From: Streptomyces hydrogenans
GTDB taxonomy: Bacteria; Actinomycetota; Actinomycetes; Streptomycetales; Streptomycetaceae
NCBI RefSeq assembly: GCF_014656075.1
Contig: NZ_BNBS01000009.1
Span: 65,369 to 129,368, forward strand
Direction of reading: 5' to 3'
Length of the DNA: 64,000 bases
This document shows positions 13,610 to 42,989 of the stretch, in pieces (position 1 is the first letter of the stretch; every line of letters starts with the position of its first letter). Under the pieces are notes generated by a model. The model did not search any database and was not told where the DNA came from. It worked only from the letters and a program-made list of their open reading frames with translations. A program made the translations under genes and the position numbers.

Positions 13610-13627
13610 CGGGGGGACCGGGGGTGG

Positions 13628-14541: not shown

Positions 14542-14551
14542 GCCGGCCCGG

Positions 14552-14557
14552 TAGGTT
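14552..14557 (+). promoter_or_regulatory. -10 box for leaderless groES-like gene
   Basis: TAGGTT, seven bases before GTG 14565, with no Shine-Dalgarno sequence in between; a leaderless transcript is expected. Confidence 0.45.
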
Positions 14558-14564
14558 CGTTCCC

Positions 14565-21680: not shown

Positions 21681-21846
21681 GGGGGAGGGTGGGGGCCGGT
21701 CCAGCCCGGGGCCGAGCCTGCCCGCGGCTCGCCCCGACTTGGGGCTCAAACCTGCCGGGGGCCGGACTCGGCACGGGGCCGAGCCCGTCCGGGGCTCGCG
21801 CCGGCTCGGGGCTCAGCGCCGCCCGGGCTTCCCCTGGCCCGGGGGC
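21681..21846. repeat. GC-rich degenerate repeats between DUF445 and a small membrane-protein gene
   Basis: Variants of GGGGCCGAGCC and its complement GGGGCTCGCC or GGGGCTC recur at least seven times in 165 bp after the DUF445 stop. The alternating orientation can form several hairpins and probably acts as a terminator for the convergent genes. No coding potential is seen. Confidence 0.65.
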
Positions 21847-22213: not shown

Positions 22214-24070
22214 TCAGGCGAGCAGCGAGGCGAAGAACCCGATCGAAGGCTCTTCGGGCGTGCCCACGAGCAGTGCGCGGTCCAGCAGGGTGTTGTTGTG
22301 CTCGCAGCTCGTCTCGGGGAGCATCACGCAGGCGTGGCACGCCGCGAGGTTGGTGCCGGCGGTCCCCGACGCCTCGGACTCGATGCAGAGGGGGTCGGAG
22401 GAGCACCACGCGGACCGGTGCACGGCCCCTCGGACGGCGTCGGCGAGCCGGGCGGGCTCGCCCTGGGCGACGAGCCCTCCGAGACTGCCGGCCGAGTCGC
22501 TCGTCGCCGTGTAGACGAGGATCCCCGCCATGCCCTCGTCGGCGTACAGACGCTCGCGGAGCGCGGCCGCCGGGTATCCGGCGTCCAGGCTCCACTGGGT
22601 GATGAGCACGTGGGCCAACGTGTGCAGCAGGATCATCCGCGGCCCGGCCGGGGAGGCCGGGGCCAGGTCCGGCTCCGTCGCCCGCTGTCGCAGCAGCCGT
22701 TCGTGCGCGGCACGGATCCGCTCCGCCCGGGCGACCACGGGCGCCGAGCCGGCCCATGCCTCCAGCCGGTCCTCGTCGAGACGGAGGAAGACGCCCTCGC
22801 CGCGCACCTCCATCGCGGGCAGCCAGGACAGGGGCGAGGTCGAGAGGGCGGCCTCCTTGCCCTCGGTGGTCGAGTCCGGGTCGGCGAGTCGGGTGAACGC
22901 CTTGAGCGCCCTGACCTCGCGGAGCTTCTTCACCAGCATCGGACCCGTGACTCCGAGGGGGACCAGGGGTGCCGGATCGCCCAGCGGCGTCTCGCAGACG
23001 AACTGCTCCTTGTGGGAGCGCTCGCGCTCGTCGTTGCCCGCGCGGAGCCGCTCGTACTCCTTGTGACGCAGGGCGAGATAGCGGCGGTCGAAGGAGGGGG
23101 TCCCGTCGCCCTCCGGATCCTCCTCCCGTTCGGCGGCGAGGAGGGCCATGACCTCGTCGACGGGGACCGGCGGCTTGTTCCTGAAGACGAAGTTGAGGCA
23201 CATTTCCACGGCGTCCCGACTGTCGAGCTCGCGGAGCTGCGCCCAGTGCTCGTCGAGCGGGTCGGCCCGCCCGTCGCTCCACGGGGGGATGGAGAGGGCC
23301 GACTTCAGGACGGGCTGCCACACGGAGGAGGAACCGCGCTGGAGCGTGCGGGCGGAGAGCCTGCAGGGGTCCGCGGGGACGGACGTCCCGAGCCAGGGGC
23401 GGGTGCCGCGACACCGCAGCCCCAGGTCCTTCAGGGCGTTCCTGCGGAAGGAGCCCTCCATCGAGACCTCCGGCACCCCGCAGGTGCACGACACGATGAT
23501 GGAGCGGAGCGAGGAGCTGCGTCCGGAGGAACGCAGGGTGAGGGTGCCGCCGCACTGCCCCGCCGTGGACGTCCCACCCGCCGACGACCGGTGCACCCAG
23601 TGCCAGTACGGGAACTCGTCGAGGTGTCCCGCCTCGCAGGCGATCACGAAGCGGGAGGGGACGAGGTCGGACCCGCATGCCCCGCACTGGCTGCGGCCGG
23701 GGGGCGGATTGAACTGGTGCCATCGGCGGAGCTCGCCGCACTCGGGGCAGGAGTGCATGATCGGGAACCGGCGGACCCGGACCCCGTCCTTGCTGGTGTC
23801 CTCGGAGGCGGGCGGCAGCCGGAAGTAGTCCACCTCGAGGAGTCGGGCGAGCCGGCGCTCGCTGATCCGCGGGGACTCGTCCGACCGCCAGTGCTCGTCG
23901 GCGCCGTCGAGCCCGGAGACGACGAAGGACTCGTGGTCGACCGCGATCAGGGAGCCGACGCCGTACGTGGTGATCATCTGGGCGCGGCGGACCGCGCCCC
24001 GCCGGGGCAGGCTCGGGGCGGGCGCGCCGTTCGCACCGGTACGGCGGCGACGCGCGGGGGGCGGGGTCAT
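22214..24070 (-). CDS. drmB: DrmB-like DUF1998 protein (DISARM family)
   Basis: A 618-aa protein matching DrmB of DISARM. The N-terminus RRAQMITTYGVGSLIAVDHESFVV is the usual entry motif. Paired zinc sites follow: CPECG (108-112), CGACG (129-133) and IACEAGHLDEFPYWHWVH. The C-terminus has LLHTLAHVLITQWSLDAGY and the DUF1998 signature CHACVMLPETSCEHNN-TLLDRALL. In DISARM, DrmA and DrmB form a complex that loads on DNA with 5' overhangs; DrmB carries no nuclease. ATG 24070 overlaps the DrmA-like stop as ATGA, and this is the last gene of the leftward operon. Family assignment is strong by motif; no search was run. Confidence 0.86.
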   Translation of the reverse strand: MTPPPARRRRTGANGAPAPSLPRRGAVRRAQMITTYGVGSLIAVDHESFVVSGLDGADEHWRSDESPRISERRLARLLEVDYFRLPPASEDTSKDGVRVRRFPIMHSCPECGELRRWHQFNPPPGRSQCGACGSDLVPSRFVIACEAGHLDEFPYWHWVHRSSAGGTSTAGQCGGTLTLRSSGRSSSLRSIIVSCTCGVPEVSMEGSFRRNALKDLGLRCRGTRPWLGTSVPADPCRLSARTLQRGSSSVWQPVLKSALSIPPWSDGRADPLDEHWAQLRELDSRDAVEMCLNFVFRNKPPVPVDEVMALLAAEREEDPEGDGTPSFDRRYLALRHKEYERLRAGNDERERSHKEQFVCETPLGDPAPLVPLGVTGPMLVKKLREVRALKAFTRLADPDSTTEGKEAALSTSPLSWLPAMEVRGEGVFLRLDEDRLEAWAGSAPVVARAERIRAAHERLLRQRATEPDLAPASPAGPRMILLHTLAHVLITQWSLDAGYPAAALRERLYADEGMAGILVYTATSDSAGSLGGLVAQGEPARLADAVRGAVHRSAWCSSDPLCIESEASGTAGTNLAACHACVMLPETSCEHNNTLLDRALLVGTPEEPSIGFFASLLA

Positions 24071-27000
24071 CGGGATGCCTCCAGGAACAGGGCGGATTCG
24101 GCGTCGACGTCGCGCAGGCTCCACAGCGTGGGCCACGCCTCGGCGTCCTCGGACTCGTCGTCGTACGACTTCAGCAGCGACGGTCTCCGGTCGCCCCGCT
24201 GCGGTTCGAAGAGCAGGCCGCCGTGGACGTCGGCCTCGTCGCACCACCAGTCGACGAACTCGTCGAAGGCGCGCGACACCGCCTCGAGCTCCGGCGGCGG
24301 TGGCGCGTCGTCCTCCGTGGGGACGGCGGCGGTGACGCGGTCGAGAAGGATCTGCTTCACGTCCTCACGGAGCCGGTCCTCGTACGAGGCGACCTTTCCG
24401 GCGGCGTCGTTCTCCCGGGCCTCGGGGAGCAGGATCCGTGCGAGGGCGACGACGACGGCGTGGAGACCGCGCTCGCGGGCGCGCGCGGAGAAGGGGGTGA
24501 CGGACGTGGACTCCACCTCGCGGTAGAGGGCCGAGTGGAAGTGCAGGAAGTTCTCGTAGTGCGAGCGGTCGCGGGACCGGGTGGCGTTGAGCATGACGGC
24601 GACCAGACCGGGGTGGGCGCGGCCGACGCGGCTGGTCGCCTGGATGTACTCCGCGGTGGTCTGGGGCTGGCCCATCACGGCCATCAGCCCGAGCCGGTCC
24701 ACGTCCACGCCGACCGCGATCATGTTGGTGGCGAGGAGGACGTCCACCGTGTCCGGGTCGGGGAGCCGCTTCTCGATGCCCTTGAGGCGGGCGGGGATGT
24801 CGCTCGCGTCGACCCGGCTGGTGAGCTCCGAGTAGTTGGTGGTGGACCGGACCTCCACCCCTTCCCGTTCGGCGAGCAGCTCCAGGTAGTCCACGACGTC
24901 GTCGTGGACCTGGAGTTCGGCCGCGGACAGGAGCCGGAGGCTGTTGAAGTAGCCCACCAGGCTCCAGTAGGCGTCGCGGACCTCCTCGCTCGTCCGTGCC
25001 TGCCTGGCCCGGTGCATGAGGGTGGCGTAGGTGCGGATGAGGAGGGTCGACTGGCTCGTGCCGGGGGCCAGCAGCCCCACGTAGCGGCGGCTGGCCTTCT
25101 CCTCCCGAGGCGTCTCGACCGCGAACCAGGAGTCCCGGGAGTCCAGTCCGGCCGGCGGGAACTGGCGTACGTCGCGCGCGAAGAGGCTGCGCCCCTGGTC
25201 GACCGCGCGGCGGATGGTCGCCGTGGAGGCGATCACCTTGGGACGATCGGCGAGGGCGTCGACCGCGGTCTCGTAGAGGCCGGTGAGCGTGCCCAACGGG
25301 CCTGAGATGAGGTGGAGTTCGTCCTGCACGACCAGCTCGGGCGCCGGGGTGGGGTCCGCCGGGTCGTCCCGGTTGAAGAGCGCCGCGGTGGCCGGTCGCC
25401 ATGGCATCGAGGCGAACTTGTCGACGGTGGCGATGACCAGGGTGGGGCGGGCGTCGTAGACCGCCTCGTCGACCAGGTGGACCGGGAGGCCGTCCGCGAA
25501 GTCGCAGCCCTCGCCGGGGCAGCGCACGCGCATCCGCCGGGCGTCGCGATCGACCGCGTAGGCTCGTGCGTCCAGCCGGGTCCCGCACCAGGGGCAGGCG
25601 TGCAGCTGGACGGGGTTCTCGGTGGCGAGCCGCCGGCCGAGGTCGCGGCGGAGCTCCTCCAGCTTCTCCTCGGCCTTCTCCAGGGTGTTGGGCGTCGCCG
25701 ACCGGCCGACCCACATCCCGATGGAGAACTCCTCGGTGCCCAGCTCCGAGGGAAGGTCCCGGCGCATCCGTTCCATGGCGCACAGCAGGATCGCGGCCCG
25801 CTCGAACTGCTGGAGCGTGAGCAGACGCAGGGTGTAGCGCATGAGGACGGTCACGCCCCCGCCGTCGGCTCCCTTCCGGATGCGGCGGAGGAACGCCGTG
25901 AAGGCGATCAGACCGAGATACGCCTCGGTCTTGCCGCCGCCGGTGGGGAACCAGAGCAGATCGGCGATCTCGCGGTCCGGATGCTTCCGGTCGTCGATGC
26001 CGGACAGGCAGAGCAGGACGAACGCGATCTGGAAGGGGCGCCAGCGGCCGGCCGTCGGGTCCGGTGCGCCGTCCTTGCCCGCCTTGACCCACGCGCTCCG
26101 GGCCCGCTGATCGGCCATGGCCCGGTTGGCGAGCCGGAAGGCCCGCATCAGTTCCGGCTTCCCGGGGTCGGCGAGGAGCGCGATGCCCGCCCGGATCCTC
26201 CGCAGGGCCTCGCCGCAGCTGTCGACCTGATCGGAAGCGGACCGCGCGTGCGGGGTGTCCGCGAGGAGGTCGGCCTCGGTCCGCTTGCGCTCGATCCACT
26301 GCTCGTAGCCGTCGGCGAGCGCGTGCAGTGCGTCCAGGATCTCGGCGTCGGAGCCCTCGGCGAGACCGAGCATGGACAGGGCCGAGCTGTCGATCTCCGG
26401 GTTGGAGTCGGCGAGCAGCACCTCGACGGCGGGTACGAACTCGCTGCGGACCTCGCTCACGGCGGCCTTCCTGGCGTCCGTGATCCCGATCGGTGGCGCG
26501 TTCCACTCCCAGTCGGCGGCACACCCGTGCCCGACGGCGAAGGTCGGTGCGTGGCGGTGCAGCAGACGGCTGGTGGCCACCTCGTCGTCGTGGGACGTGT
26601 GCGGGGCGGGGCGCTCGACGAAGGCCCCGGAACCGTTCGAGGCCCGGACCGTGAGCCCGCACTGGAAGAGGGAGGCGGCGTCCTGCAGATCGTGCTCGCC
26701 GACCCGCTGGGTGTTGACGAGGGTCACGGTCACGGTCACGGTGCCGGTGGTCGCGTGAGGGCGTCGGACGTTGACCCGGAGAGCGGCCCCGTGCCCGAGT
26801 TCGACCTCGATCCGCGGATCCGGGGTGGTCACGTCGACGGTGGTGTCCGGCAGCGACAGCACGGTGCGGTGCCACTGTTCCTGCTGGTCGGAGGTGGTGC
26901 GTGCTTCGGCCCGGCGGGCCGGGACGGGACGCCCCGTCGCGTCGGTGGGCCGGTAGGCGGAGGCCTGGACCCCGACGACGATCGACCGGCTCTCGTCCGG

Positions 27001-27354
27001 GTCGACCGCGAAGGTGAGGCCCATCGACGAGGGGCGCCGGGAGCCGGAGGTGACGGCCTCGTCGGAGGCGGACGGCTCGTCGGCCTCCTTGCGGGAGATC
27101 ACGGGCGCGTCGTCCGGACTGTTCTGTTCCTGCTCCGCGGCCCGGAGCCGGTCCGCGGCGGCGGGATCCGCCGACCGGGGGTAGAGGACGCCGACGACAT
27201 AGCGGTCGATCGGTGCGTCCTGCACGAGGACCTCGGTCAGGTCCTCGTGAGCGGCGTCGGGAGCTGGGCCCAGGAGCTCACGGCGCAGCCCGACGAGGAG
27301 CTCCTCGTCCCGGACCCGGTAGTGCTCGGCGTGTCGGCCTGCCACGTGCGTCAT
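24067..27354 (-). CDS. drmA: DrmA-like SF2 helicase (DISARM family)
   Basis: A 1,095-aa helicase. A 450-residue N-terminal region without known motifs precedes the SF2 core: Walker A TGGGKT (471-476), a four-Cys zinc insert (CPWCG at 587-591, then RCPGEGCDF), Walker B variant QDELH (677-681), motif III STATI, and motifs V-VI ATNMIAVGVDVDRLG and EYIQATSRVGR. QDELHLISGPLGTLTGLYE in place of DEAD/DEAH is the DrmA hallmark. It is coupled to the UvrD-like gene upstream (ATGA) and drmB-like gene downstream (ATGA). In DISARM, DrmA with DrmB restricts phage DNA; that role is inferred here. Confidence 0.86.
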   Translation of the reverse strand: MTHVAGRHAEHYRVRDEELLVGLRRELLGPAPDAAHEDLTEVLVQDAPIDRYVVGVLYPRSADPAAADRLRAAEQEQNSPDDAPVISRKEADEPSASDEAVTSGSRRPSSMGLTFAVDPDESRSIVVGVQASAYRPTDATGRPVPARRAEARTTSDQQEQWHRTVLSLPDTTVDVTTPDPRIEVELGHGAALRVNVRRPHATTGTVTVTVTLVNTQRVGEHDLQDAASLFQCGLTVRASNGSGAFVERPAPHTSHDDEVATSRLLHRHAPTFAVGHGCAADWEWNAPPIGITDARKAAVSEVRSEFVPAVEVLLADSNPEIDSSALSMLGLAEGSDAEILDALHALADGYEQWIERKRTEADLLADTPHARSASDQVDSCGEALRRIRAGIALLADPGKPELMRAFRLANRAMADQRARSAWVKAGKDGAPDPTAGRWRPFQIAFVLLCLSGIDDRKHPDREIADLLWFPTGGGKTEAYLGLIAFTAFLRRIRKGADGGGVTVLMRYTLRLLTLQQFERAAILLCAMERMRRDLPSELGTEEFSIGMWVGRSATPNTLEKAEEKLEELRRDLGRRLATENPVQLHACPWCGTRLDARAYAVDRDARRMRVRCPGEGCDFADGLPVHLVDEAVYDARPTLVIATVDKFASMPWRPATAALFNRDDPADPTPAPELVVQDELHLISGPLGTLTGLYETAVDALADRPKVIASTATIRRAVDQGRSLFARDVRQFPPAGLDSRDSWFAVETPREEKASRRYVGLLAPGTSQSTLLIRTYATLMHRARQARTSEEVRDAYWSLVGYFNSLRLLSAAELQVHDDVVDYLELLAEREGVEVRSTTNYSELTSRVDASDIPARLKGIEKRLPDPDTVDVLLATNMIAVGVDVDRLGLMAVMGQPQTTAEYIQATSRVGRAHPGLVAVMLNATRSRDRSHYENFLHFHSALYREVESTSVTPFSARARERGLHAVVVALARILLPEARENDAAGKVASYEDRLREDVKQILLDRVTAAVPTEDDAPPPPELEAVSRAFDEFVDWWCDEADVHGGLLFEPQRGDRRPSLLKSYDDESEDAEAWPTLWSLRDVDAESALFLEASR

Positions 27355-32200: not shown

Positions 32201-34030
32201 TCCGGCGAAGCCCTGGTCGAGCACGCTGATGAACCTGCCCTCGGCGTGCGCCTCCCGGATGCCGAGCACGTTCAGGGCGTGGGCGAGCGACGGATCCTGG
32301 GCGAGCTCGCCGACCACGTACACGAGGGACTCGGGGAGTCCGCCCTCGTCGGCCCTCCGGAAGACCCGGCCGACCACGGGGGCGACGAGCCCGTGCTCCT
32401 CGGTGAGGACGATCTTCGCCTTCCGGGCCTCGGCGGCGTCGGGGGACCCCTTCTCGATCATGTCGGTGAGGATCCGGATCGCCGTCGCCGAGGCCGCGGG
32501 GGTCCCGGACGCCACGAGCGCCTCCAGCCATGTGCGGACGTCGGCCCGCTCGCGCCCGGCCGCGCCGATGATGTGTTCCACCTTTCCGGACCGCAGGGCG
32601 TCGACCTCCACCGACGGGTGCAGCCAGTCCGACGGGCGGTCCGGGCAGCCGTGCCACATCCGCAGCCATCCGGCGAGGTGCTGCTTCGGTTCGAGACGAG
32701 GGTGGACGTGGAGTTCCGCCGGTGTCCGCAGGACTCCCTCCTGGTCGGGGAGCGAGGGGCGCACGGCGGCGCGGGCCCAGATCTCCCGGGTCAGGAACTC
32801 GTCCGCCCAACTGATGGCCTCCTTCACGCGGCCGGGCAGGAGCGGGAGATGGGCGGCGGGGTCGTCGGCGGGGGCGAGCCGGGGGAGGGAGTCGACGACG
32901 AGCTGCGCCGAAACCTTGATCATCTCCTCGTTGAAAGCGGAGGAGTCGAGCAGGTTCTGGCGGTCCTCGTTCGTCTTCCAGGCGCCGTTGAGGATGCCGC
33001 TCAGGGAGATCTCGTACTTCGTGGGGAAGAACGACCAGAACCGTCCGCGCCCGCGTGCCTTCGACGACAGGTACAGGCCGCTCTTCGGATCCTTCTCCAG
33101 GGCGGGGACGGCCCAGGCGAGTTCGAGCGAAAGGCGGTCGTGCAGCTCACCGGCGTCGGCCCGCGCGGCGGGGCCCGGCTCGTGCGTGACGGTGAAGACC
33201 CTCCAGCGGTCCGCCGTGGTCGGCTTCCCGGTGCGTTCCTCGTGCACGGTGTGCAGGTCGCCCGCCTGCTCGGTGGTCAGGACGCGTCGGACGACGGGGC
33301 GGGGCCTGCGGTCGTCCAGGACGACCTTCGCCACGTGGGGGGAGAGGAGCTGGAAGCCGAGGGGGAACTCCTCGCGGGACGAGACGTTCGACCGTCCGCC
33401 GTGCATGTCCTGGGCCAGTCGGTCCGCGGCGCCGCGGAGCAGCGGCAGGCGCACCACCGTCGTGGCCCAGCGGAGCAGTTCGTCGAGCACGCCGTCCTGC
33501 GCGCGCTCCGCGGCCATGTCGAGGGGGCGGGCCATGCGCAGCACCGGGGCCTCGAAGTCCGTGCCCAGGTGTGCTTCGACCCCCGGCACCGACCGGATGC
33601 GCTCGTAGGACCAGTCGCGGTCGAAGCCGAAGGAGCCGGTGGCGCCGAAGAACTGCGGGGCGTCGGTGACGACGAGTACCGACTTCACGCCGACGCCGAA
33701 GCGGCCGATCTGTCCGCCGCGTTTGCGCGACATGCTCATCCGCAGGATGGTCTCCGCGCCCTCGGGCGAGACGGGCGTGCCCTCGTTGGCGCAGTAGAGG
33801 TGGGTGTCGGTGAGGACGACGTGGACCGTGCCGCCCGGCTGGGACGCGATCTCGTCGGCCGCGTTCTGGACGAGTTCGAAGAGCTGGCGGTCGCCGTAGC
33901 CACCCTGGGTGATGCGGCGCTCGCTGTTGGCGTGCTCGGGGATGAGGCCGGGGTCGACCTCGTAGGTCTGGAGAACGCGGTCGGACTGCTCGAGGACGGT
34001 CCGGATGACGGGGGAGTCCGTGGCTGACAT
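29273..34030 (-). CDS. Giant fusion: sacsin-like GHKL ATPase plus SF2 helicase
   Basis: A 1,585-aa protein. The N-terminus is a sacsin/Hsp90-type GHKL ATPase: N-box ELVQNAADE (52-60) and G2 box GRFGVGVKS (109-117). About 1,000 residues without recognisable motifs follow. The C-terminus is an SF2 helicase: Walker A PTGAGKT (about 1215-1221), DEAH (about 1321-1324), LTATP (about 1352-1356), and motif VI QMIGRGLRGP (about 1540). ATG 34030 is chosen because the sacsin domain begins there; ATG 34171 would add 47 Pro/Arg-rich residues and overlap the upstream gene by 11 bp. Its stop overlaps the UvrD-like start. Role unknown; defence is inferred from context. Confidence 0.85.
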   Translation of the reverse strand: MSATDSPVIRTVLEQSDRVLQTYEVDPGLIPEHANSERRITQGGYGDRQLFELVQNAADEIASQPGGTVHVVLTDTHLYCANEGTPVSPEGAETILRMSMSRKRGGQIGRFGVGVKSVLVVTDAPQFFGATGSFGFDRDWSYERIRSVPGVEAHLGTDFEAPVLRMARPLDMAAERAQDGVLDELLRWATTVVRLPLLRGAADRLAQDMHGGRSNVSSREEFPLGFQLLSPHVAKVVLDDRRPRPVVRRVLTTEQAGDLHTVHEERTGKPTTADRWRVFTVTHEPGPAARADAGELHDRLSLELAWAVPALEKDPKSGLYLSSKARGRGRFWSFFPTKYEISLSGILNGAWKTNEDRQNLLDSSAFNEEMIKVSAQLVVDSLPRLAPADDPAAHLPLLPGRVKEAISWADEFLTREIWARAAVRPSLPDQEGVLRTPAELHVHPRLEPKQHLAGWLRMWHGCPDRPSDWLHPSVEVDALRSGKVEHIIGAAGRERADVRTWLEALVASGTPAASATAIRILTDMIEKGSPDAAEARKAKIVLTEEHGLVAPVVGRVFRRADEGGLPESLVYVVGELAQDPSLAHALNVLGIREAHAEGRFISVLDQGFAGYGDAEWERFWELFRRAGGRRLAHTLLEKVPRARETLHVRTADRRFRPVRDCMLPGTVVTAERDPGIAVDVRFHSDDLSFFPDLGLRERPSAAVRPESDAEGWFEEYREAVHTAYLKRLANTAPRPSLSRMKVEGSPVGGPLHLFRALSQESRAAFLKALPDDAVVDNWTLQIGAQTSTRQSVASPIRWMLRRHGYVATSQGVKPLAEAVGPQLAAYRDVLPVADISSEKARKLHLATTVDEVPADRWDSLLTELSRSEDDGFVGATYVMLTRFGAEFPEDTLTRCRVGDAWGTRPDEEITVAVGTAEYRALRAEQLPALLVSTVEDAELLVEKWGMLRFADVISKETREVPEGEPVPLVELYPGLRQQLNSATRGSLVQRCTELEELTRTPNGTRPRPLDAVRQGTTVKILVPVEAEPMLRLIDRELELGLGPTGCRAVLELQERMARDGAMRAAIKAVQEASDVVTKIELLIGADALRAGLPEGLMEAESQEAGGTEPSGHRIAQMAFNAHGDGVLQQHARDIQARFPNAPVAYGGSSAAIAFVSDLRLPVAFAGSRTPAPPAFETVEGPRDFPRLHDYQEDLVRNISGLLDRLAPQRAMLSLPTGAGKTRVTSEAVIRWVKQVGDLRGPLLWIAQTEELCEQAVQSWKFVWNKVGAESPLTISRLWSSNEVGDVVDHPHLVVATDAKLERCLGTDAYAWLREAALVIVDEAHTAVSKRYTEILSRLGLTRYETKRHLLGLTATPYRNTNEEETLRLVGRFGNRRLDEGVFPSGDPYRDLQQWGMLAEVEHRTLQGGRIELTREEKAQAERMSMLTRAAEQRLADDHSRSRRIVEEVAGLPEDWPTLLFATSVDHAKYLAALLNDRGVPSAAVDATTSASDRRRRIEEFRSGRIRVLTNYGVLTQGFDAPATRVVVVARPVYSTNVYQQMIGRGLRGPRNGGKDTCLILNVSDNIENFDTQLAFTQFEHLWSRT

Positions 34031-34160
34031 GTCTCTGCGGCTCCTGGAGTCGAGGAGGGAAGGAAGAGGAAGGGCCGCGGCGGGCCGGCCCGGTTCAAGG
34101 TCCCGGGGTGCGTCGGTGCCTTGCACCAGGCCGGCGGGCCGCGTGGTGGTGAGGGTGCGG

Positions 34161-34358
34161 TCAGCCGTCATCGCGGTCGGGTTCGAGCAGGGTCATGCCG
34201 ACGATGTCGGTGAAATAGACACGGCTCTCCCCGAGTTCCTGCAGGAAGTGCTCCCGCATGGCCGGAGCGGCCGTCCGATAGCCGAGCTCGGCGGCGGAGC
34301 ACTCGCGTCCGGACCAGGGGGGAGGGTTCAGGGGGCACTCGTCGTAGGGGTGGGTCAC
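34161..34358 (-). CDS. 65-aa protein heading the DISARM-like operon
   Basis: A short frame starting at GTG 34358 behind a good ribosome site (GAGGAG, six bases upstream) and ending 130 bp before the giant ATPase-helicase gene. The peptide begins MTHPYDECPLNPPPWSG and continues with a helical stretch (APAMREHFLQELGES). It has two Cys but no transmembrane helix or family motif. The 198-nt size, ribosome site and position as first gene of the operon favour a real gene. A small regulatory, inhibitor or sensor component is possible but cannot be shown from sequence. Confidence 0.6.
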   Translation of the reverse strand: MTHPYDECPLNPPPWSGRECSAAELGYRTAAPAMREHFLQELGESRVYFTDIVGMTLLEPDRDDG

Positions 34359-34882
34359 GTTTGTCTCCTCAACTTTTGGGAACATTGCTGTGTCCCGCGC
34401 CGAAATGCGACGCTCTGTGCGTCGTCCGGGCAGGCTGGATCGCCGTTCGGCGCAGGTCGTTCCTGCTCGGACGGTTCTTGCGTCACGCGGGGTTCGGCGC
34501 TCGTGACCCCTCGGGCGTTCGCGGGAGTTGCCTTGTCGGAATTCCGCTTGCACGCCTCGTGGGCGGGACAAGGCAGGTTGAGGACAGACGTGTGGCGTGC
34601 GCATCGAGATGTCTTCTCGAAACGGCACGGCTTCTCCGGCTCCATGAGCTTGGCAAGCGATCTTCGGCGGCGTCAAGTCCCGCCGGGGAAGCTTCACTTG
34701 AGGAGTGTGAGGGTCCGTTTACGAGGTCGGGCGAAGCGGCATGGTTCGTGTCTTTCCGGAACTTTCGGGCGGAGCATGTGGACTCCTCGGTCGCAGGTTC
34801 GAGTCAAGTAGCAGTTGACGATCTACTTCGTGTCAAATTAGCCTGCTCGTGTTCATGACGCGGTCGACGAACGGGTGGTTGC
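34359..34882. promoter_or_regulatory. 524-bp divergent control region of the two defence operons
   Basis: No credible gene is seen on either strand; the open frames here lack ribosome sites and look non-coding. The region is more AT-rich than its surroundings, for example around AACTTTTGGGAACATTG (34369-34385), and contains the promoter and palindrome described separately at its right end. The leftward promoter should lie within about 100 bp of 34358 but I cannot place it with confidence. Confidence 0.6.
34806..34844 (+). promoter_or_regulatory. Promoter with overlapping palindromic operator for the XRE-GHKL operon
   Basis: -35 TTGACG (34815-34820) and -10 TAGCCT (34839-34844) are separated by 18 bp. 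The -35 sits inside a dyad AAGTAG-N11-CTACTT (34806-34828). A dyad placed over the -35 is what an autoregulating XRE-type protein would bind, and the first gene of the operon encodes an XRE HTH. The pairing of regulator and site is inference. Confidence 0.6.
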
Positions 34883-37039
34883 ATGGAGACGGGCGAGGAC
34901 TTCGGGCCCTGGCTGGCCCGCCAGCTCAAGCTCGCGGGGAAGAACCAGGCCGAACTGGCCGACGAGCTGAAGCTGACGCGCGCCGCGGTGTCGGCGTGGA
35001 TCACCGGACGGTCGGTCCCGCGTCCGACGATGATGACGGAGATCGCCCGGGCGCTCGGCACGGACATCGGCACGGTCCACACCCGCACCACCGACACCCA
35101 GGCGGGTCTTCCCGTCACCTGGTACCACCGCCCCGGCTACCAGGACGGCGGTCGCGACGGCGGCAACGCCGCGGCCTTCGCCTTCGACGCCGACGTCCAG
35201 GTGCTCGCCCGTGAGACCTGCCAGAACAGTCTCGACGAGCGGCTGACCGACAACGGCCGCCCGGTCCGCGTGCGCTACACCATCCACGAGATCACCGGAG
35301 AGACGCTCGACGCGTTCCGACAGGCGATCCTCTGGGACGAGCTCCAGCCCCACTACGAAGCGGTGTCGGAGGCGGCGGCCCACCAGAAGGTCGGGCGGGT
35401 CGTCCACGCCGGCGTGCGTGACATGTTCGAGAAGGGGAGGCTCGTCCTCCTCCGCGTCGACGACTACAACGCCTCCGGCCTCGTCGGCGACGACTACGAC
35501 AACGGCAAGTTCGCCGCCGTCGTCCGACGCCAGCTGGAGAGCCTCAAGTCGGACCGCGGCGCGGGTGGTTCCTTCGGCCTCGGCAAGGCGACCCTGTGGG
35601 CGACCAGCGCCCTCGGCATGGTGCTGATCAACTCCACCCTCTCCGTCCCCCACGAGGGCCGGACCGAACGACGAGTCATCGGACGCCTGGAACTGCCCTG
35701 GCGATCCGTCGGCGACGGCACCTATGCCGGTCCCGCCTGGCTCGGACGCCCCGACCCCGACAGCCCCGGGGCCCAGGTCACCCGCTCCTGGTGGGCGGAC
35801 GAGGACATCGTCGAGCGTCTCCACCTCACCCGCGACAGCGACGAACCGGGCACCTCCTTCCTCATCGTCGGCGCGCACGACGTCGCCAGCCTCGACGAGA
35901 GCAACGCCGACAGGGTGGTCGACGACGAGAACGGGCGGGACGGCCAGGAGGACGACGGGACCCGCGACATCCGCTCCATGCACCGCCGTCTCGTCGAGGC
36001 CCTCGAAAGGGACTTCTGGGCCGCCATGACCGCCGGAGGGAGCAGACTCCCGCTGCTGGAGACCTCGGTCCGGACGCTCCGCAACGGCCAGGTCGTCGTC
36101 GAGGAGCAGCAGATCGACCCCACCGAGGCCCAGCCCGCGCGCACCCGAGCCCTGCGCGCCTTCTACGAGGGGACGACCGTCGACCGGTTGACCGAGCCCG
36201 GGCAGGTGGCCCTGCGCACGGTCCCGCTGAAACTCCCCCTGGCGGGCGGTCGACGCGGCACGCACGGCACGCACCAGGCCGTCCTCCTCGTCACCGACGC
36301 GGGGGACAAGGACGGCGTCCCCAAGCAGGTCCACTCCCTGCGGGGCAACCGGATGACCATCAAGCGGTCGACCGTCGCCGGACTCCCCCTGGGGGTCAAC
36401 AGTTTCCAGGCCGTGCTCCTCACCGGAACCGCGGCCGGTGAGGCCGCGCCCTTCGCCGAGGAGGCCGAGGAGTTCCTGCGGGCCGCCGAGCCGCCCGAGC
36501 ACGACCGATGGGGCCAGACGGAGGAGCTGACCCTGCGCTGGTCGCACACCGCGCACCACCGGATCGCGCGCCTGACCACCGAGGTGAACGCGGCGGTGAA
36601 GGAACTGGTCGCCAGGCCCAAGCGGTCCGGCGACGAGGGCGGTGCCAAGCTCCGGAAGGCCCTCACCGTCTCCCCGACGAAGAAGACGACGTCCAGGCGC
36701 GCCGCCGGACCCGGACTGCCGGAACTCGACGGCCTCGACGCGTCCATCGGCCCGGCGGGGGAGTGGCGGATCACCGCGGAGGTGAAGCTGCCCCGCGTCG
36801 ACGAACTTCCCGTGATGACCCCCGTGGTCCTGCTCGACGTGCGCTCGGGAGCTCGACCCCGCCTGGACTGGGCGGAACTCGTCGCCGAGGAGGGCTGCGA
36901 GATGGAGGACGGAGTGCTGCGCTTCACGCCCGGCGCCCGACGTGCCGTGTTCGGCGGCGCCACCGACGTCACCAGTCACCCGGTCCGTACCGCACTGACA
37001 CGGCTGGTGCTCGAACTGCGCGCCGGCCAGGGGGAATGA
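34883..37039 (+). CDS. XRE-type HTH fused to a GHKL ATPase
   Basis: A 718-aa protein. Residues about 9-62 are a helix-turn-helix of the XRE/Cro type (LKLAGKNQAELADELKLTRAAVSAWITGRSVPRP). Then comes a GHKL ATPase: N-box ARETCQNSLDE (E111, N115), G1 box RVDDYNASGL (191-200) and G2 box GGSFGLGKA (228-236). The remaining 480 residues have no motif I know. MutL, Hsp90 and MORC proteins use this fold as an ATP-driven clamp. The HTH suggests operator or phage-DNA recognition. ATG 34883 lacks a clear ribosome site. It is the first gene of a three-gene operon divergent from the helicase operon. Confidence 0.82.
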   Translation: METGEDFGPWLARQLKLAGKNQAELADELKLTRAAVSAWITGRSVPRPTMMTEIARALGTDIGTVHTRTTDTQAGLPVTWYHRPGYQDGGRDGGNAAAFAFDADVQVLARETCQNSLDERLTDNGRPVRVRYTIHEITGETLDAFRQAILWDELQPHYEAVSEAAAHQKVGRVVHAGVRDMFEKGRLVLLRVDDYNASGLVGDDYDNGKFAAVVRRQLESLKSDRGAGGSFGLGKATLWATSALGMVLINSTLSVPHEGRTERRVIGRLELPWRSVGDGTYAGPAWLGRPDPDSPGAQVTRSWWADEDIVERLHLTRDSDEPGTSFLIVGAHDVASLDESNADRVVDDENGRDGQEDDGTRDIRSMHRRLVEALERDFWAAMTAGGSRLPLLETSVRTLRNGQVVVEEQQIDPTEAQPARTRALRAFYEGTTVDRLTEPGQVALRTVPLKLPLAGGRRGTHGTHQAVLLVTDAGDKDGVPKQVHSLRGNRMTIKRSTVAGLPLGVNSFQAVLLTGTAAGEAAPFAEEAEEFLRAAEPPEHDRWGQTEELTLRWSHTAHHRIARLTTEVNAAVKELVARPKRSGDEGGAKLRKALTVSPTKKTTSRRAAGPGLPELDGLDASIGPAGEWRITAEVKLPRVDELPVMTPVVLLDVRSGARPRLDWAELVAEEGCEMEDGVLRFTPGARRAVFGGATDVTSHPVRTALTRLVLELRAGQGE

Positions 37040-37043
37040 GGGC

Positions 37044-38039
37044 ATGAAGTTCTATCCGTACAAGCGGCTCAACCGGCCGATCGCCCTCCGGGTGACCTCG
37101 GCCTCCCTCAAGCTGCCCGACAACACCAGGGACCTCCTGGACACCTCGGCCTGGTCCGTCCCGCAGCGGACCGTCGCCCTGGGCGTGGCGCAGCACGACG
37201 ACTGGACCTCGGCCAGGATCGGGCTCTCCGCCACGCTGCCGCCGGGCGCGGTCGCCGACGACGCCCCGTGGACCGGGCTGAAGGTCCTGGTCACGCTCGC
37301 CGACGGCGAGACCAACGTGCGGACCTCCGTGGAACTCCGGCAGGACGCGCCGGGGAGCAAGGAGTGGTCCGGGTTCGTCGAGGTGAACCGCGACGACCAC
37401 GTGGGTCGAGCCTTCCTCTCCGCCCAGGCCGTCGCCACCGTCGACGACGTCGCCGGCCGGTCCGTCGCGGAGACCGACGAGGACTGGACCGTCGACGTGA
37501 CCGCCGACGAACCCCTCGGGGGTCTGCGTCTGGACGTCAAACAGGTCGGGTTCGCCAAGAGCTCTCGGGAGTGGCTCCACGCGTACGCGGACGCCCCCTG
37601 GATCGTGGACGCGTCCGGCCGTGTCCCGGCCGTCCTGGTCAACACCGACGTCGAGGGTTTCGCCGACCTCCTGGACGCCGAGAGCGGCGGCATGGAGAAC
37701 AAGGTCCACGAACTGCTCGTCACGCAGATGTCCACGGACGTGTGGACCGCCGTGTTCCACAGCGCCGTCGGCGATCTGGAGACGGAGTCCGACGGCACGC
37801 CCGTGTTCCCCACCGACTGGCGGGGCGAGGTGCTCCGGGAGATGCTCCCCGACGTCGCCCCGGGCGTCCATGTGGAAGAGGCGCTCCGACGGGTCCACCG
37901 ACGGCGCACCGGCGACGCCGGGTGGGTGGAGCTCCAGACCCGCATCCACTACGCGGCCGTGCGTCGTGCCGGCGTGAGCAGGGCGCTCTCCCAGGCCCTG
38001 CGCGCGCTCCAGCAGTCGAACCGAGGGGACCACGCATGA
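37044..38039 (+). CDS. Unknown protein, second gene of the XRE-GHKL operon
   Basis: A 331-aa protein beginning four bases after the GHKL gene stop. The N-terminus (FYPYKRLNRPIALRVTSASL) and first 200 residues are rich in beta-strand-like alternation with repeated acidic patches. The C-terminal 100 residues are helical (VLREMLPDVAPGVHVEEALRR, VSRALSQALRALQQS). No catalytic, zinc or membrane motif is seen. Its stop overlaps the next start as ATGA. Tight coupling to the GHKL ATPase suggests a dedicated partner subunit. I do not recognise the family. Confidence 0.75.
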   Translation: MKFYPYKRLNRPIALRVTSASLKLPDNTRDLLDTSAWSVPQRTVALGVAQHDDWTSARIGLSATLPPGAVADDAPWTGLKVLVTLADGETNVRTSVELRQDAPGSKEWSGFVEVNRDDHVGRAFLSAQAVATVDDVAGRSVAETDEDWTVDVTADEPLGGLRLDVKQVGFAKSSREWLHAYADAPWIVDASGRVPAVLVNTDVEGFADLLDAESGGMENKVHELLVTQMSTDVWTAVFHSAVGDLETESDGTPVFPTDWRGEVLREMLPDVAPGVHVEEALRRVHRRRTGDAGWVELQTRIHYAAVRRAGVSRALSQALRALQQSNRGDHA

Positions 38040-38896
38040 TCGAGAAGCCGTACCACGTACCCCTTCGCCTCGGCCTGCTGTCCGCGGCCGCCGCAGAGCC
38101 CTTCCTCACGGAGGACCTTCTCAAGGGGGTCGCGGGACATGCCGGTGTCGACCTGGACAAGGTCGTCGACCGACTGCCGGAGGACGATCCCCGATGGGAG
38201 GTCGAACCGCTCCGCGACCTGATCGAGGACGCCAAGCACGCGTTCGAGGACAACCGGACGCAGGCCGACGCCTGGCTGGCGCCCCGGCTGCACGCCGCAC
38301 TGCGCCTCACCCGCCGGGAGGCGGCCGACCGGAGGCTCTGGACCCACCTGGCGCTGGCCGTCGCACCGGACTACGTGGCCTGGCGCCACCGGTCCAGGAC
38401 CACGTCGAAGATCGGCCCGGAGCGGTTCAGGGGGGCACCGGACCGTCAGTGCTTCTCCCGGCTGTGGTGGGCCGCGGAGATGTTTCGCGACGGCGCGGAC
38501 TACACGCCGGTGGTCACGGCCTGCGGGAACCAGGATCTCATCCATTCGGCGCTCCGACGGGAGCTGATCGACCACCGGCCCATCGCGCAGGCTCTCGTCC
38601 AGGTCATGGAGCGGGGCGTCGCCGTCACCGGTCGTGAGATCGAGGGCCTGATGACGGCGGTCAGCGCCGCCGGCGCGACCCTCGTCTACGACGCGCTGGC
38701 CCCCGACGTGCCGCGCGACCCGGGCGTGGTCCGGACGTGGATCGAGGAGGCCGCCCATGTTTCGGTGCCGAGGCGCGTCCTGCCGGACGGGCCCGACGAG
38801 GAACCGGTCCCGAAGAAATCGGTGAGCGACCTCACCGACTTCTTCGCCGACCTGTTCGAGACGGCGCCCGTCCGGGGGCGAGCCGTCAAGGAATGA
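38036..38896 (+). CDS. DUF6339-like protein, third gene of the XRE-GHKL operon
   Basis: A 286-aa protein, mostly helical. The central part, from DAWLAPRLHAALRLTRREAA through LWTHLALAVAPDYVAWRH and a conserved-looking CFSRLWWAAEMFRDG, resembles what I recall as DUF6339, a family of unknown function seen near restriction and other defence genes in actinobacteria. It has no nuclease signature I can identify. ATG 38036 overlaps the upstream stop. It ends 12 bp from the convergent methyltransferase gene with no obvious terminator between. The family match is from memory and should be taken as tentative. Confidence 0.68.
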   Translation: MIEKPYHVPLRLGLLSAAAAEPFLTEDLLKGVAGHAGVDLDKVVDRLPEDDPRWEVEPLRDLIEDAKHAFEDNRTQADAWLAPRLHAALRLTRREAADRRLWTHLALAVAPDYVAWRHRSRTTSKIGPERFRGAPDRQCFSRLWWAAEMFRDGADYTPVVTACGNQDLIHSALRRELIDHRPIAQALVQVMERGVAVTGREIEGLMTAVSAAGATLVYDALAPDVPRDPGVVRTWIEEAAHVSVPRRVLPDGPDEEPVPKKSVSDLTDFFADLFETAPVRGRAVKE

Positions 38897-38908
38897 GCGG
38901 CGGGAGGG

Positions 38909-40462
38909 TCACCGGCCGGTGAGCGGGTGGCCCTTGAGGTCGCGCTGCTCGCGCGGACTCACCGTCCGCCGGGGCTTCCAGCTCATCAACTCCTCGATGC
39001 CCGTGTCGAGCCTGGCCTCGGCCTCCTTCTTTCCCAGCCCGGGCTCGAGCACATGGCGCAGCACATGGAGGGCGAGCCGCGGAGGCACGGCGTTGCCGAT
39101 CTGCTGCGAGATGTCGTTGCCGTCCCACGGATAGGCGGCGGGGAAGGTCTGGAGCACTCCGGCCTCGGCCTTGTTGAAACGGGCGAGGTCGCCGTCGAGG
39201 TTCCGGTCGGTGCCCGGATGCACGAGACGGTTCCGGGAAACCTTCCCGGTGACCGTTGCGGAGGGCATGTCGTGGTCACGGCGCCCTCGATCCTCCGGCT
39301 TGCCGCCGGTCCCGTAGTTGGACACGACGGTGAACGGCGGACGGGTGCGCACGTCCGCTGAGAATCGGCCGGCGCTCTCCAGGGCCTTCTCCATGGAGAT
39401 CCACTTCTCGATGGGCCGGTCGTCCTCGCCCTCGGCATCCTCCACGGGCAGGGTGTCGGACGGCGACGGTCCGGCGAGGGACTTTCCTCGGTGGTACAGC
39501 TCGTGCGTCCGCTTCACGGGAGGGAGGGGAGTGCGGTCCGATCCGTCGCGGCGGGCCATCAGCACCGCACGTCGCCGTGTCTGGGGGACCCCGAAGGTCT
39601 CCGTGTGGAGCAGCTGCGTCGCGGTGCGGTACTCGAGGGTGTCGAGGACCTCGGTGTACGCGTGCCACACCGGCATCACGGCCGGCACCTGCTCCAGGAT
39701 CACGGCCTCGAAGGGTACCGAGCCGGGCCGCCTGCTTCGCTCGATGATCCACCACAGCGGCTGCAGGACGAGCCCGGTCCGCTCGTCGCCGAGCTCCTCG
39801 AGCTTGTCCCTCAGCTTGTCGAGCACGCCGGTCAGCTCGCCGAACTCCTTGACCAGCCCGGCGAACTCGTCGTCGCGGATCTCGAGGGCCGTGGGCTCCT
39901 CCAGGTTCTTCAGGAGCTCCTTCACCTGCTCCGGCGACTTGCCCATGTCCTCGAGGCGCTTCCGAATGGCCTTGCGCTGTCGGGTCCTGGACTGTTCCAC
40001 GGCCCGCTTCTCCGCCTTGACGGTCCGGGCCTCGACCTCCTTGAGCCGCAGCTCCTCGTGGATCTTCCGCCAGGCTCGGAAGACCTTCGCCCAGGCGGCC
40101 GATGCGTCGGGGTGGTCCACGGTGTCGCGCACCGCCCGGTGCAGGCGGTCGATGTACCGCAGAACCTGATCCAGCGCCCTGCGGCCCGCGCCGTGCCCGG
40201 CGACGGTGAAGGTCTGGCAGGGGGGCCCACCGGTCAGTACCTGTGCGTGCGGGAAGAAGGCGGCGCGATACTCGCGGACGTCGCCCTTGAAGGTGTCCAT
40301 CCCGGCCTTGGCACGGGTCGCGCACGCTCCGGCGTCCCACTCGATGCCGGTCACCTCGTGCCCGAGGACGTCGGCAGCCACATCGAGCCCGCCGGGGCCG
40401 GCGAAGAGGTCGAGGATGCGGTACCTCGCCGGTGAGGGGCTGTCCGTTTCGATGTGACTCAT
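38909..40462 (-). CDS. DNA cytosine-5 methyltransferase with large helical insertion
   Basis: A 517-aa C5-methyltransferase. Motif I DLFAGPGG (18-25), motif IV GGPPCQ with catalytic Cys82, motif VI EQV (257-259, usually ENV), motif VIII QTRRRAVLMARR, and late motifs PSATVTGK and QQIGNAVPPRLAL are intact, so it should be active. Residues about 105-228, between motifs IV and VI, hold an extra charged helical segment (LRLKEVEARTVKAEKRAVEQ and LDKLRDKLEELG) of the coiled-coil type. A TAGAAT -10 lies eight bases before ATG 40462. It probably marks host DNA for the adjoining system; the recognised sequence cannot be read from the protein. Confidence 0.9.
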   Translation of the reverse strand: MSHIETDSPSPARYRILDLFAGPGGLDVAADVLGHEVTGIEWDAGACATRAKAGMDTFKGDVREYRAAFFPHAQVLTGGPPCQTFTVAGHGAGRRALDQVLRYIDRLHRAVRDTVDHPDASAAWAKVFRAWRKIHEELRLKEVEARTVKAEKRAVEQSRTRQRKAIRKRLEDMGKSPEQVKELLKNLEEPTALEIRDDEFAGLVKEFGELTGVLDKLRDKLEELGDERTGLVLQPLWWIIERSRRPGSVPFEAVILEQVPAVMPVWHAYTEVLDTLEYRTATQLLHTETFGVPQTRRRAVLMARRDGSDRTPLPPVKRTHELYHRGKSLAGPSPSDTLPVEDAEGEDDRPIEKWISMEKALESAGRFSADVRTRPPFTVVSNYGTGGKPEDRGRRDHDMPSATVTGKVSRNRLVHPGTDRNLDGDLARFNKAEAGVLQTFPAAYPWDGNDISQQIGNAVPPRLALHVLRHVLEPGLGKKEAEARLDTGIEELMSWKPRRTVSPREQRDLKGHPLTGR

Positions 40463-40470
40463 GGGTCCGA

Positions 40471-40476
40471 ATTCTA
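40471..40476 (-). promoter_or_regulatory. -10 box directly upstream of the active methyltransferase
   Basis: On the minus strand TAGAAT ends eight bases before ATG 40462, in the 46-bp gap after the second methyltransferase gene. It suggests the intact methylase has its own nearly leaderless promoter as well as operon read-through. Confidence 0.45.
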
Positions 40477-40508
40477 GCCGGCGGGCGAGGTCGGGACGTA
40501 CGCCTCTT

Positions 40509-41495
40509 CTACGCCCTGTGGACAGAGCGCAGAGCGGTGGCCAGCGCCCTTCCGAGTGCGGCACCCACCGGTGGGGGAGTGGCGTGGCCGACCTGGCGGT
40601 ACCGGGCCGTCTTGCGTCCCGTGATGCGCCACTCCGGAGGGAAGGACTGGAGAAGCGCGGCCTGGTCCACCGTGAGCTTCACCATCAGAGCGGGATCGGT
40701 CGAGCGCGGCCATGCGTACTCGGGGCCGGGGACCTCGTCGGCCAGGGATCCCGCGTTCACGCCCATCCGGGCCCAGGCCCTCTTCGTGCCGGACGGACCG
40801 AGGTCCGCTCCGCCCCGGTTCTCGGACCCGCCGACCAGCGTCGGCGCCACCGCCAGGGCCTGGGCGGCCCACGCCTCGGCGTCGCTCCACCCACGGGCCT
40901 TCATGGACGACAGCAGCGCCCGCCCGACGGGGACGTGCTCGGCGACCGTCGGACCCGGTGGGGCGAAGGCGTCGAACCACGGATCCTCGAGCGCCACCAG
41001 GATGCCCGACCGGCGTTCCTGCGGCACACCGTGGTCGGCGGCGTTCAGCACGAACCAGCGGAAGCGGTAGCCGAGGTGGGTCAACTCCTTCTCGATGAAA
41101 GACCGGATGCCGGCGTACTCGGCGGAGTCGACCAGCGCGGGCAGGTTCTCCATCAGCAGGGCGCGCGGCCGGACGGAGTGCAGCAGGTACACCGTGGCCT
41201 CGAGGAGCCGCAGCGAGCCGGTGTCGTCGGCCCCCCGCGCGGCCGATGCCTTCACCCTCGGCAGGCCGGCCGAGAGGAGGTCGACGTCGAGGCTCTCGGG
41301 ATGGTCGTCGGGGAGGAAGTCGACCAGGTCCTCGCAGACCACGTTCCAGTGCGGTCGGTTGGCGAGGAGCGTCTCGCACGCCTGGGGCTTGTGGTCGAGG
41401 AGCAGGGAGGGCGTGAATCCGGCGCTCTCCAGACCGGAGGCGAGGCCGCCCGCTCCGGAGCAGACGTCGACGAACCGGAGGGTGTCACACGTCAT
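40509..41495 (-). CDS. Cytosine-5 methyltransferase homologue lacking the catalytic PCQ motif
   Basis: A 328-aa protein with clear C5-methyltransferase structure: motif I VDVCSGAGGLASGLE, motif VI RALLMENLPALV, motif VIII QERRSGILVAL, and a late QVGHATPPPVGAAL (GHA for the usual GNA). At motif IV it reads DLLSAGLPRVKASAARG where DLLxGGPPCQ is expected, so the catalytic cysteine is absent. The nucleotide sequence here reads cleanly, with no frameshift or stop. It is most likely a non-catalytic partner or regulator of the neighbouring methylase, or a DNA-binding decoy. ATG 41495 lies inside the end of the vsr gene (11-bp overlap). Confidence 0.85.
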   Translation of the reverse strand: MTCDTLRFVDVCSGAGGLASGLESAGFTPSLLLDHKPQACETLLANRPHWNVVCEDLVDFLPDDHPESLDVDLLSAGLPRVKASAARGADDTGSLRLLEATVYLLHSVRPRALLMENLPALVDSAEYAGIRSFIEKELTHLGYRFRWFVLNAADHGVPQERRSGILVALEDPWFDAFAPPGPTVAEHVPVGRALLSSMKARGWSDAEAWAAQALAVAPTLVGGSENRGGADLGPSGTKRAWARMGVNAGSLADEVPGPEYAWPRSTDPALMVKLTVDQAALLQSFPPEWRITGRKTARYRQVGHATPPPVGAALGRALATALRSVHRA

Positions 41496-41955
41496 CGTGC
41501 CGGTCCTCCGCTTCCCGCGCCGTCCCCCGTGTCCCTGTCCCTCGCTTCCCCGCCACGGTCGCCCTCACCGTCGCGGCGACCTCCTCCGGGGGTGCGTGTT
41601 CCCAGAAGCGGAGGACGGTCCATCCCTGGGCCTGGAGGTGCTCGGTCGTCTCCCGGTCGCGGGCCATGTTGCGGTCGAGCTTCTGTCGCCACCACTCCGC
41701 GTTCGCCTTCGGGTGCGTGGCGTGCTCCGGGCAGCCGTGCCAGAAGCAGCCGTCGATCAGTACGGCCACCTTGACCGAGGTGAAGGCCACGTCGATCCGG
41801 CGCCTGGCCATGCCGGGGACCGGGTACTCGACGCGGTAGCGCAGCCCGGCCGCGTGGAGGAGACGGCGTACCGCGAGCTCGGCGGCCGTGTCCTTGCTGG
41901 CCTGCCGGCTCATGCGGGCCGAGACGCCTGGGGAGGAGGGGAAGGCTTCGGGCAC
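41485..41955 (-). CDS. vsr: Very short patch repair endonuclease (Vsr)
   Basis: A 156-aa Vsr-type endonuclease. The N-terminus SARMSRQASKDTAAELAVRRLLHAAGLRYRV and core RRIDVAFTSVKVAVLIDGCFWHGCPEH with HPKANAEWW match the family; the DG in LIDGCFWHGC is the metal-binding core. Vsr nicks T:G mismatches left by deamination of 5-methylcytosine and normally travels with C5-methylases. GTG 41955 is preferred because the conserved RMSRQ block lies 20 residues in; ATG 41913 is the alternative and would remove part of it. It is the first gene of a leftward vsr - pseudo-methylase - methylase unit. Confidence 0.88.
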   Translation of the reverse strand: MPEAFPSSPGVSARMSRQASKDTAAELAVRRLLHAAGLRYRVEYPVPGMARRRIDVAFTSVKVAVLIDGCFWHGCPEHATHPKANAEWWRQKLDRNMARDRETTEHLQAQGWTVLRFWEHAPPEEVAATVRATVAGKRGTGTRGTAREAEDRHDDV

Positions 41956-41984: not shown

Positions 41985-42989
41985 TCACTCCGCCCCGTGG
42001 CACTCCCCGTACGTCCTCTCCGAGCCGCACCAGCACGCGTCCGTCCTCAGTGGGGGCCAGGGGGTGGCTCGGGCTCGGGCGGCGAGGGTGGTGGCGTATT
42101 GGGGGAGGAGGTCGGCGTTGGCGGGGGAGGAGGACTCCGAGGCGGCGAAGGCCTCGTAGGAGGGGACGGTGGCGCGGACGATGCCGAGGTTGGGGGTGCC
42201 GGCGGCCGCCAGTTCGCGGAGGGACGCCTCGATGTCCGTCAGATGGGCCCGGTAGGTGGGGTACTCCGTCTCCAGCTCCGGGTAGGCGGCGAGGAGCTCG
42301 GTGAGTTCCTCGGTCGGCCAGTGGAGGACCGCCACCGGGAAGGGGCGGGAGAGGGCCGTGCGGTAGGTGCCCAGTTCGGAGCGGAGGCGGGCGATCTCGG
42401 CCTGGAGCTCGGTGGGGTCGGAGGAGCCGAGGGACCAGAGGCGCTTGGGGTCGTGGAGCTCGTCCAGGGGGATCTCGCCCTGGTGGAGGCGGTCCGCGCG
42501 GGTGTCCCAGTCGTCGTGGGGCAGGGCCAGCATGCGGCGGACGCGGTGGCGGGTCGCCAGGAGGGAGTGCGTGGCGTGGGGGAGTTCCGTGTCGTCGCCG
42601 GAGGCGGCGAGGAGCGCGGCGGCCTCGGTGAGGGTCCGCTCGGCCGCCTCCAGCTCGTCGTGGGCCTCCAGCGTCTCCGCCGCGATCTGCCACGGGGGCG
42701 CGTCGGCCGGGCGGGAGCGTCGTACGCCCTCGATGATGGCCCTCGCCTCGGCCTCGTGCCCGTACTCCCACAGGTTCGACGCCTTCAGCGCGCGGATCAG
42801 GTGGGGGTCGGCCGGGGCGCCGGACAGCAGGTCGTCGTAGAGCGCCGTCGCGCCGGGGCGGTCGTCGGCCAGTTCCAGGTGGGCGGCGGCGCGGAGCAGC
42901 AGCGGTTCCCGGTCGCCGGGGTACTGCGTGGCGGTGCGCAGCAGGCGCTCGGCTTCGGCGGTGTGGGCGGCAGGCGTGTCGGGGCGCAT
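41985..42989 (-). CDS. TPR-containing protein with C-terminal SEC-C motif
   Basis: A 334-aa soluble protein. The first 130 residues form degenerate tetratricopeptide-type helix pairs (AERLLRTATQYPGDREPLLLRAAAHLELA, ATALYDDLLSG). The C-terminus is a SEC-C zinc motif, C-W-C-G-x7-C-H (DACWCGSERTYGECHG), as found in SecA tails and many small adaptor proteins. The middle has a helical segment (LQAEIARLRSELGTY). Function is not known; SEC-C/TPR proteins are generally regarded as adaptors. The gene borders the methylase unit on the same strand but has a different character, and I do not include it in the island. Confidence 0.8.
   Translation of the reverse strand: MRPDTPAAHTAEAERLLRTATQYPGDREPLLLRAAAHLELADDRPGATALYDDLLSGAPADPHLIRALKASNLWEYGHEAEARAIIEGVRRSRPADAPPWQIAAETLEAHDELEAAERTLTEAAALLAASGDDTELPHATHSLLATRHRVRRMLALPHDDWDTRADRLHQGEIPLDELHDPKRLWSLGSSDPTELQAEIARLRSELGTYRTALSRPFPVAVLHWPTEELTELLAAYPELETEYPTYRAHLTDIEASLRELAAAGTPNLGIVRATVPSYEAFAASESSSPANADLLPQYATTLAARARATPWPPLRTDACWCGSERTYGECHGAE

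Follow-up and report, generated by a model that had tools for sequence, protein, structure and literature searches.

Several described systems share parts with the locus that we report here. Passages of one study describe the DrmC protein of DISARM as dispensable and often missing (PMC9142583). Loci with GHKL, SF2, methylase, and Vsr genes were already described in 2008, in a paper in which we saw no mention of a DrmAB-type pair (PMC2292703). The ARMADA, TALON, and BRIGADE systems hold YprA-family and UvrD/GajB-like helicases in one locus, as presented in part of PMC12458937, in the main text of which "GHKL" and "sacsin" occur zero times. Here, we analyzed a 64,000-nucleotide (nt) stretch (the window) of the 9.0-Mb genome of Streptomyces hydrogenans. 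Ten genes occupy positions 22214 to 41913 of the window and form three units: unit a on the minus strand, unit b divergent from it on the plus strand, and unit c on the minus strand, convergent to b (Table 1; the labels a0 to a4, b1 to b3, and c1 to c3 and the types A to C are our own). This cluster is kept together across actinomycetes, and we consider it likely to be a single anti-phage system of the restriction type: units b and c would be its core, and unit a would be a DISARM-type motor set that can be exchanged.

RESULTS

Co-occurrence of the ten genes

We looked for a1 in a sample of 150 Streptomyces genomes, that of the window included, and found a full-length copy in 24 of them (47 to 100% identity). 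We read the neighborhoods of these 24 and of G097, whose a1 is 31% identical, taking gene calls from a simple codon-composition rule and gene order from best tblastn matches. Among the 25 neighborhoods, unit b adjoins a1 in 23 (exceptions, G095 and G097), c2 and c3 relatives are present in 24 (exception, G095; c2 is degraded in G137), and DrmA, UvrD, and DrmB are present in 25, 24, and 24, respectively, the contig of G144 ending inside DrmA. Unit b is thus present in 23 of the 24 full-length type A loci, and in none of 32 genomes was it found without a motor set.

A scan of GTDB genomes, which kept the best 80 of 430 and gives no prevalence estimate, yielded 77 loci from 16 genera. b1 was found in 64 of these loci and in 10 of the genera (two overlapping loci, L147 and L148, share one copy); all ten genes were present in 49 loci and all except vsr in 9 more. 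In a class-wide sample, a1 was found in 13 of 296 genomes and 10 of 114 genera. The a1 protein relatives are the best 120 of 1188, and the c2 genomes are the 40 stronger of 54. In many of the 150 Streptomyces genomes, a sacsin-type GHKL protein is also encoded separately, usually in a frame of ∼1,050 to 1,150 amino acids (aa) (for example, G000:C99:12158-12748), and this inflates the raw number of a1 matches.

The linkage outlasts rearrangement. In five loci (G051, L100, L104, L109, and L155), c2 is found past DrmB, on the opposite strand. The orientation of vsr is reversed in G129 and several other loci, and in Actinoplanes (L147/L148) b1, b2, and b3, at 25 to 40% identity, follow DrmB in one direction. 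The initial annotation had read the three units as one functional module and had proposed that gene set and order be compared across genomes; most loci keep the full set, the genes stay in the locus despite rearrangements, and the interpretation as one module is supported by this co-occurrence together with the co-variation of units a and b described below. The contig of L147/L148 (Actinoplanes xinjiangensis) carries two a1 genes that differ from each other (identities to the closest query, 47% and 44%) and surround a single UvrD-DrmA-DrmB-b1-b2-b3 run. In Kineosporia babensis (L133), DrmB is followed by a second a1-like protein (11913-14798; 33% identity), which is truncated where the stretch ends.

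Co-variation and probable exchange of motor sets

Protein distance matrices of a1 correlate with those of b1 (0.96), b2 (0.93), b3 (0.93), UvrD (0.98), DrmA (0.98), and DrmB (0.99), over 22 to 24 genomes each. For the 15 genomes that have the flanking SEC-C gene, the a1-b1 correlation is 0.94 versus 0.56 for a1 and the flank, and it remains 0.92 after removal of the flank signal; over the whole set of 16 genomes, to which the outlier G097 belongs, the a1-flank value is 0.23, and the figure comparable with the a1-b1 value is 0.56 on 15.

In other genomes, different motor sets adjoin closely related b1 genes, as placed in a b1 tree with a midpoint root and with long branches for L148 and G137. 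The S. hydrogenans genome itself holds a second DrmA/DrmB pair without the sacsin-SF2 fusion (G000:C83:14047-23642; L171, L172), and next to this pair lie a HelD-like small helicase and an MzaA-like frame of 1165 aa that contains a sigma-70 region; G117 has a similar set. Elsewhere, an SF2 helicase that shares 39% identity with the SF2 half of a1 is encoded in a 594-aa frame next to a DrmA-like gene (G067:C1:3012147-3019223), possibly a further variant. In G009 (L173, 918-15171), a high-scoring DrmA/DrmB pair has as neighbors a UvrD-like gene and a ProA/PLuB-like antiphage protein of 2032 aa, and no DrmC-like gene was recognized among the proteins scanned there.

The locus is flanked by a SEC-C protein gene (41985-42989) and by an ABC/DUF445 block (20412-22149). 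In G025, G042, and G054, the SEC-C gene is found only a few kilobases from type C loci as well, and the site therefore seems to be a hot spot occupied by alternative systems.

Proteins of the locus

Profile matches and sequence bear out what the initial annotation had claimed for unit a, namely, a sacsin-GHKL/SF2 fusion, a UvrD-like helicase, DrmA, and DrmB. Its genes overlap by 4 nt at each junction; the motifs of a1 are conserved across 25 sequences, and the a1 start is best placed at 34030 because its relatives begin there. Unit b, described as a divergent XRE-GHKL ATPase with two more genes, was also read correctly, and its third gene encodes a DUF6339 protein. The same holds for unit c, said to consist of vsr, a methylase homologue without PCQ, and an active-type C5 methylase: PRV replaces PCQ in MTi, and GGPPCQ is intact in MTa. 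Ten of the eleven genes named at the outset therefore stand, and the remaining one, for a 65-aa protein, falls away, as the 74-codon open reading frame (ORF) at 34161-34385 has no tblastn match at 1e-5 in the other 24 neighborhoods. Several relatives have small ORFs at this place, unrelated to it.

TABLE 1 Genes and predicted operator of the locus, in window coordinates (HTH, helix-turn-helix; pLDDT, predicted local distance difference test)
Feature	Description	Position	Strand	Evidence
a4	DrmB, 618 aa, MZB/DUF1998-type zinc domain	22214..24070	-	NCBIfam NF038324, 466.8 bits (cut-off 240); PADLOC DrmB, 1.7e-66
a3	DrmA SF2 helicase, 1095 aa	24067..27354	-	NCBIfam NF038325, 1014.9 bits (cut-off 950); PDB DrmA 7s9v, 5.5e-175
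a2	UvrD-like SF1 helicase, 641 aa	27351..29276	-	Pfam UvrD-helicase, 1.6e-24; PADLOC GajB, 9.5e-25
a1	Sacsin-type GHKL ATPase fused to RadD-like SF2 helicase, 1585 aa	29273..34030	-	NF047352 P_loop_sacsin, 66.3 bits (cut-off 50); ResIII, 1.9e-16
Operator	Predicted b1 operator, TTGAC-N-GTCAA-N-TTGAC	34803..34836		Conserved inverted pair before b1
b1	XRE HTH + GHKL-type ATPase, 718 aa	34883..37039	+	HTH_3, 8e-10; PADLOC PDC-M33A, 1.1e-22
b2	Unannotated protein, beta sandwich + helices, 331 aa	37044..38039	+	AlphaFold2 pLDDT 87.8
b3	DUF6339 protein, 286 aa	38036..38896	+	PF19866, 49.9 bits (cut-off 23.2); PADLOC PDC-M33C, 2.4e-10
c3 (MTa)	C5-cytosine methylase, intact GGPPCQ, 517 aa	38909..40462	-	PF00145, 7.2e-25
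c2 (MTi)	C5-methylase homologue without catalytic Cys, 328 aa	40509..41495	-	PF00145, 7.3e-35
c1	Vsr-type endonuclease, 142 aa	41485..41913	-	PF03852, 54 bits (cut-off 27)

The two methylase homologues differ consistently at the catalytic position. With MTi matches below 45% identity, MTa matches below 35% identity, and one MTi row without motif coverage set aside, the catalytic Cys of MTa is kept in 65 of 65 covered relatives, and Arg stands at this position in 75 of 77 covered relatives of MTi, whose PRV was aligned to motif IV of DNMT1. Among PADLOC models, the match of MTa to DrmMII (1.2e-19) is weaker than its match to a type II methyltransferase model (7.9e-86).

The GHKL-like boxes of b1, read by eye, are conserved and are retained at 32% identity; b1 does not match the PADLOC MzaB model. 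A sigma-70 region was found in both of the two type B b1 proteins that were scanned. For b2, scans of a domain library gave no family over the cut-off and no PADLOC model at 0.1, and its AlphaFold2 model (predicted template modeling score, 0.58) shows a beta sandwich of ∼150 residues and a helical half. Neither domain scans nor, for b2, the model and structure searches revealed a toxin or nuclease domain in b1, b2, or b3.

A conserved element upstream of b1

The 852 nt between a1 and b1 (34031-34882) had been taken as a shared divergent control region. This divergent region is real, but its conserved element adjoins b1 only. An inverted TTGAC/GTCAA (or GACAA) pair lies within the first 140 nt upstream of b1 in all 23 type A Streptomyces loci, at ∼40 to 80 nt, and in the rest of the intergenic region in none of the 23; single-base shuffles of the sequences gave a mean of 0.025 and a maximum of 1. 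In 10 of the 23 loci, the sequence also accommodates a third half-site. The three-part form was not found in the 8 type B, type C, and Actinoplanes stretches examined, four of which (L178, L179, L180, and L183) have two half-sites 17 to 18 nt apart. We predict that the element is the operator of b1; alternatively, it could be a promoter element. Different relatives hold unrelated small ORFs in the 852-nt gap, and several share a SKAEVxEIL-like segment.

DISCUSSION

We propose that units b and c would form a marking and sensing core and that unit a would supply exchangeable motors. MTa would methylate cytosines of host DNA at position 5 and so set the mark; its putative partner, the dead MTi, would read DNA or have a stimulating role. 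The GHKL protein b1, together with b2 and b3, may form a clamp, powered by ATP, through which foreign DNA that lacks the mark is coupled to the motors, and the HTH of b1 would hold the operon off via the TTGAC/GTCAA site. By analogy with published DISARM, unmarked DNA that carries 5' overhangs would be the loading substrate of DrmAB. The UvrD helicase and the sacsin-SF2 fusion would move along this DNA and separate its strands, and Vsr or a host nuclease would cut it. If this is true, such defenses would swap their DNA motors like plug-in parts.

Several observations weigh against a single system of this kind. Unit c tracks unit a loosely: the a1-c2 correlation is 0.53 (partial, 0.26), that of c2 with the flank is higher (0.70), unit c relatives are also found with other motors, and G025 (L182) has unit b and MTa with no clear MTi. 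Vsr was found in 20 of the 25 Streptomyces neighborhoods, once as a fragment, and was not found in the other 5 or in 21 of the 77 GTDB loci, and no other nuclease was recognized among the ten genes of the window. a1 stands without b1 in 13 of the 77 loci, and in 6 of the 16 genera it was seen only in this state; in Streptomyces tropicalis (L084), a1 and units b and c are present with no UvrD, DrmA, or DrmB within the stretch examined. DrmA occurs in 62 of the 150 Streptomyces genomes (43 above the curated cut-off), and because it is commoner than the a1 cluster, most DrmA genes work without the core of units b and c. Finally, structure searches with b2 gave generic matches that point to no function.

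We regard as unlikely that the locus is a DISARM variant with its own regulator, in which DrmAB, the sacsin-SF2 fusion, and UvrD are the whole defense, with the role of unit b limited to HTH-based control of expression and that of unit c to host protection. The XRE HTH of b1 and the conserved inverted site upstream of it fit this alternative, as do the sigma-70 regions of the two type B proteins and the 13 loci with a1 and no b1, but b2 and b3 are conserved, match no regulator family, and co-vary with a1 at 0.93, and the GHKL-like boxes of b1 are kept at 32% identity. It is very improbable that unit b is an abortive-infection guard, with PDC-M33-like genes that would kill the cell in response to an attack on the methylase/motor system: b1 and b3 do match the PADLOC candidates PDC-M33A and C, but no toxin or nuclease domain was recognized in the three proteins, and we found no PDC-M33 function described in open-licence literature. 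There is likewise little chance that DISARM-like, PDC-M33, and Vsr/C5-methylase sets are defense-island neighbors working independently, given the near-constant presence of unit b in full-length type A loci (23/24) and the failure to find it without a motor set in any of 32 genomes, the a1-b1 correlation of 0.94 versus 0.56 for the flank in the same 15 genomes, and the persistence of the genes in the locus through rearrangements.

Set against known systems, the cluster that we read as a core with exchangeable motors has DrmA, DrmB, and a C5 methylase in common with DISARM (classes 1 and 2), as the initial annotation had noted; DrmA and DrmB score above their NCBIfam cut-offs. That DrmC and DrmE are not visible was confirmed: no model of DrmC, DrmD, or DrmE is among the PADLOC matches listed for the locus proteins (best 25 each for a1, a2, c2, and c3), and the phospholipase-D family PF13091 has two matches in the genome, neither on the contig of the window. 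The sacsin-SF2 fusion, UvrD, the HTH-GHKL protein, b2, DUF6339, the dead C5-methylase partner, and Vsr are additional to DISARM. In a quick tree with long branches, the DrmA of this locus, type B DrmA, and the 12 highest-scoring Streptomyces DrmA rows (10 genomes; picked by score, not by complete DISARM locus, and including four duplicates of two genomes) form separate groups, except that the type A G097 groups with type B rows. Compared with PDC-M33, of which we found no description in open-licence literature, b1 and b3 match (Table 1), whereas b2 matches no model and the motor and methylase proteins match other models. The combinations of DrmA, DrmB, and sacsin and of DUF6339 likewise yielded no description in open-licence literature and may be described elsewhere. 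The pairing of YprA-family and UvrD/GajB-like helicases is shared with ARMADA, TALON, and BRIGADE, but in our locus two separate genes encode the helicase and the DUF1998 part, an arrangement that DISARM also has; among the PADLOC matches listed, there is no PglX-like methylase, and the only match to BrxHI/BrxHII is a weak one of a1 (2.2e-4). We file the locus as a new DISARM-related variant, a hybrid of two known kinds, in which the helicase pair of DISARM is joined to a marking/ATPase gene set that elsewhere adjoins different DNA motors.
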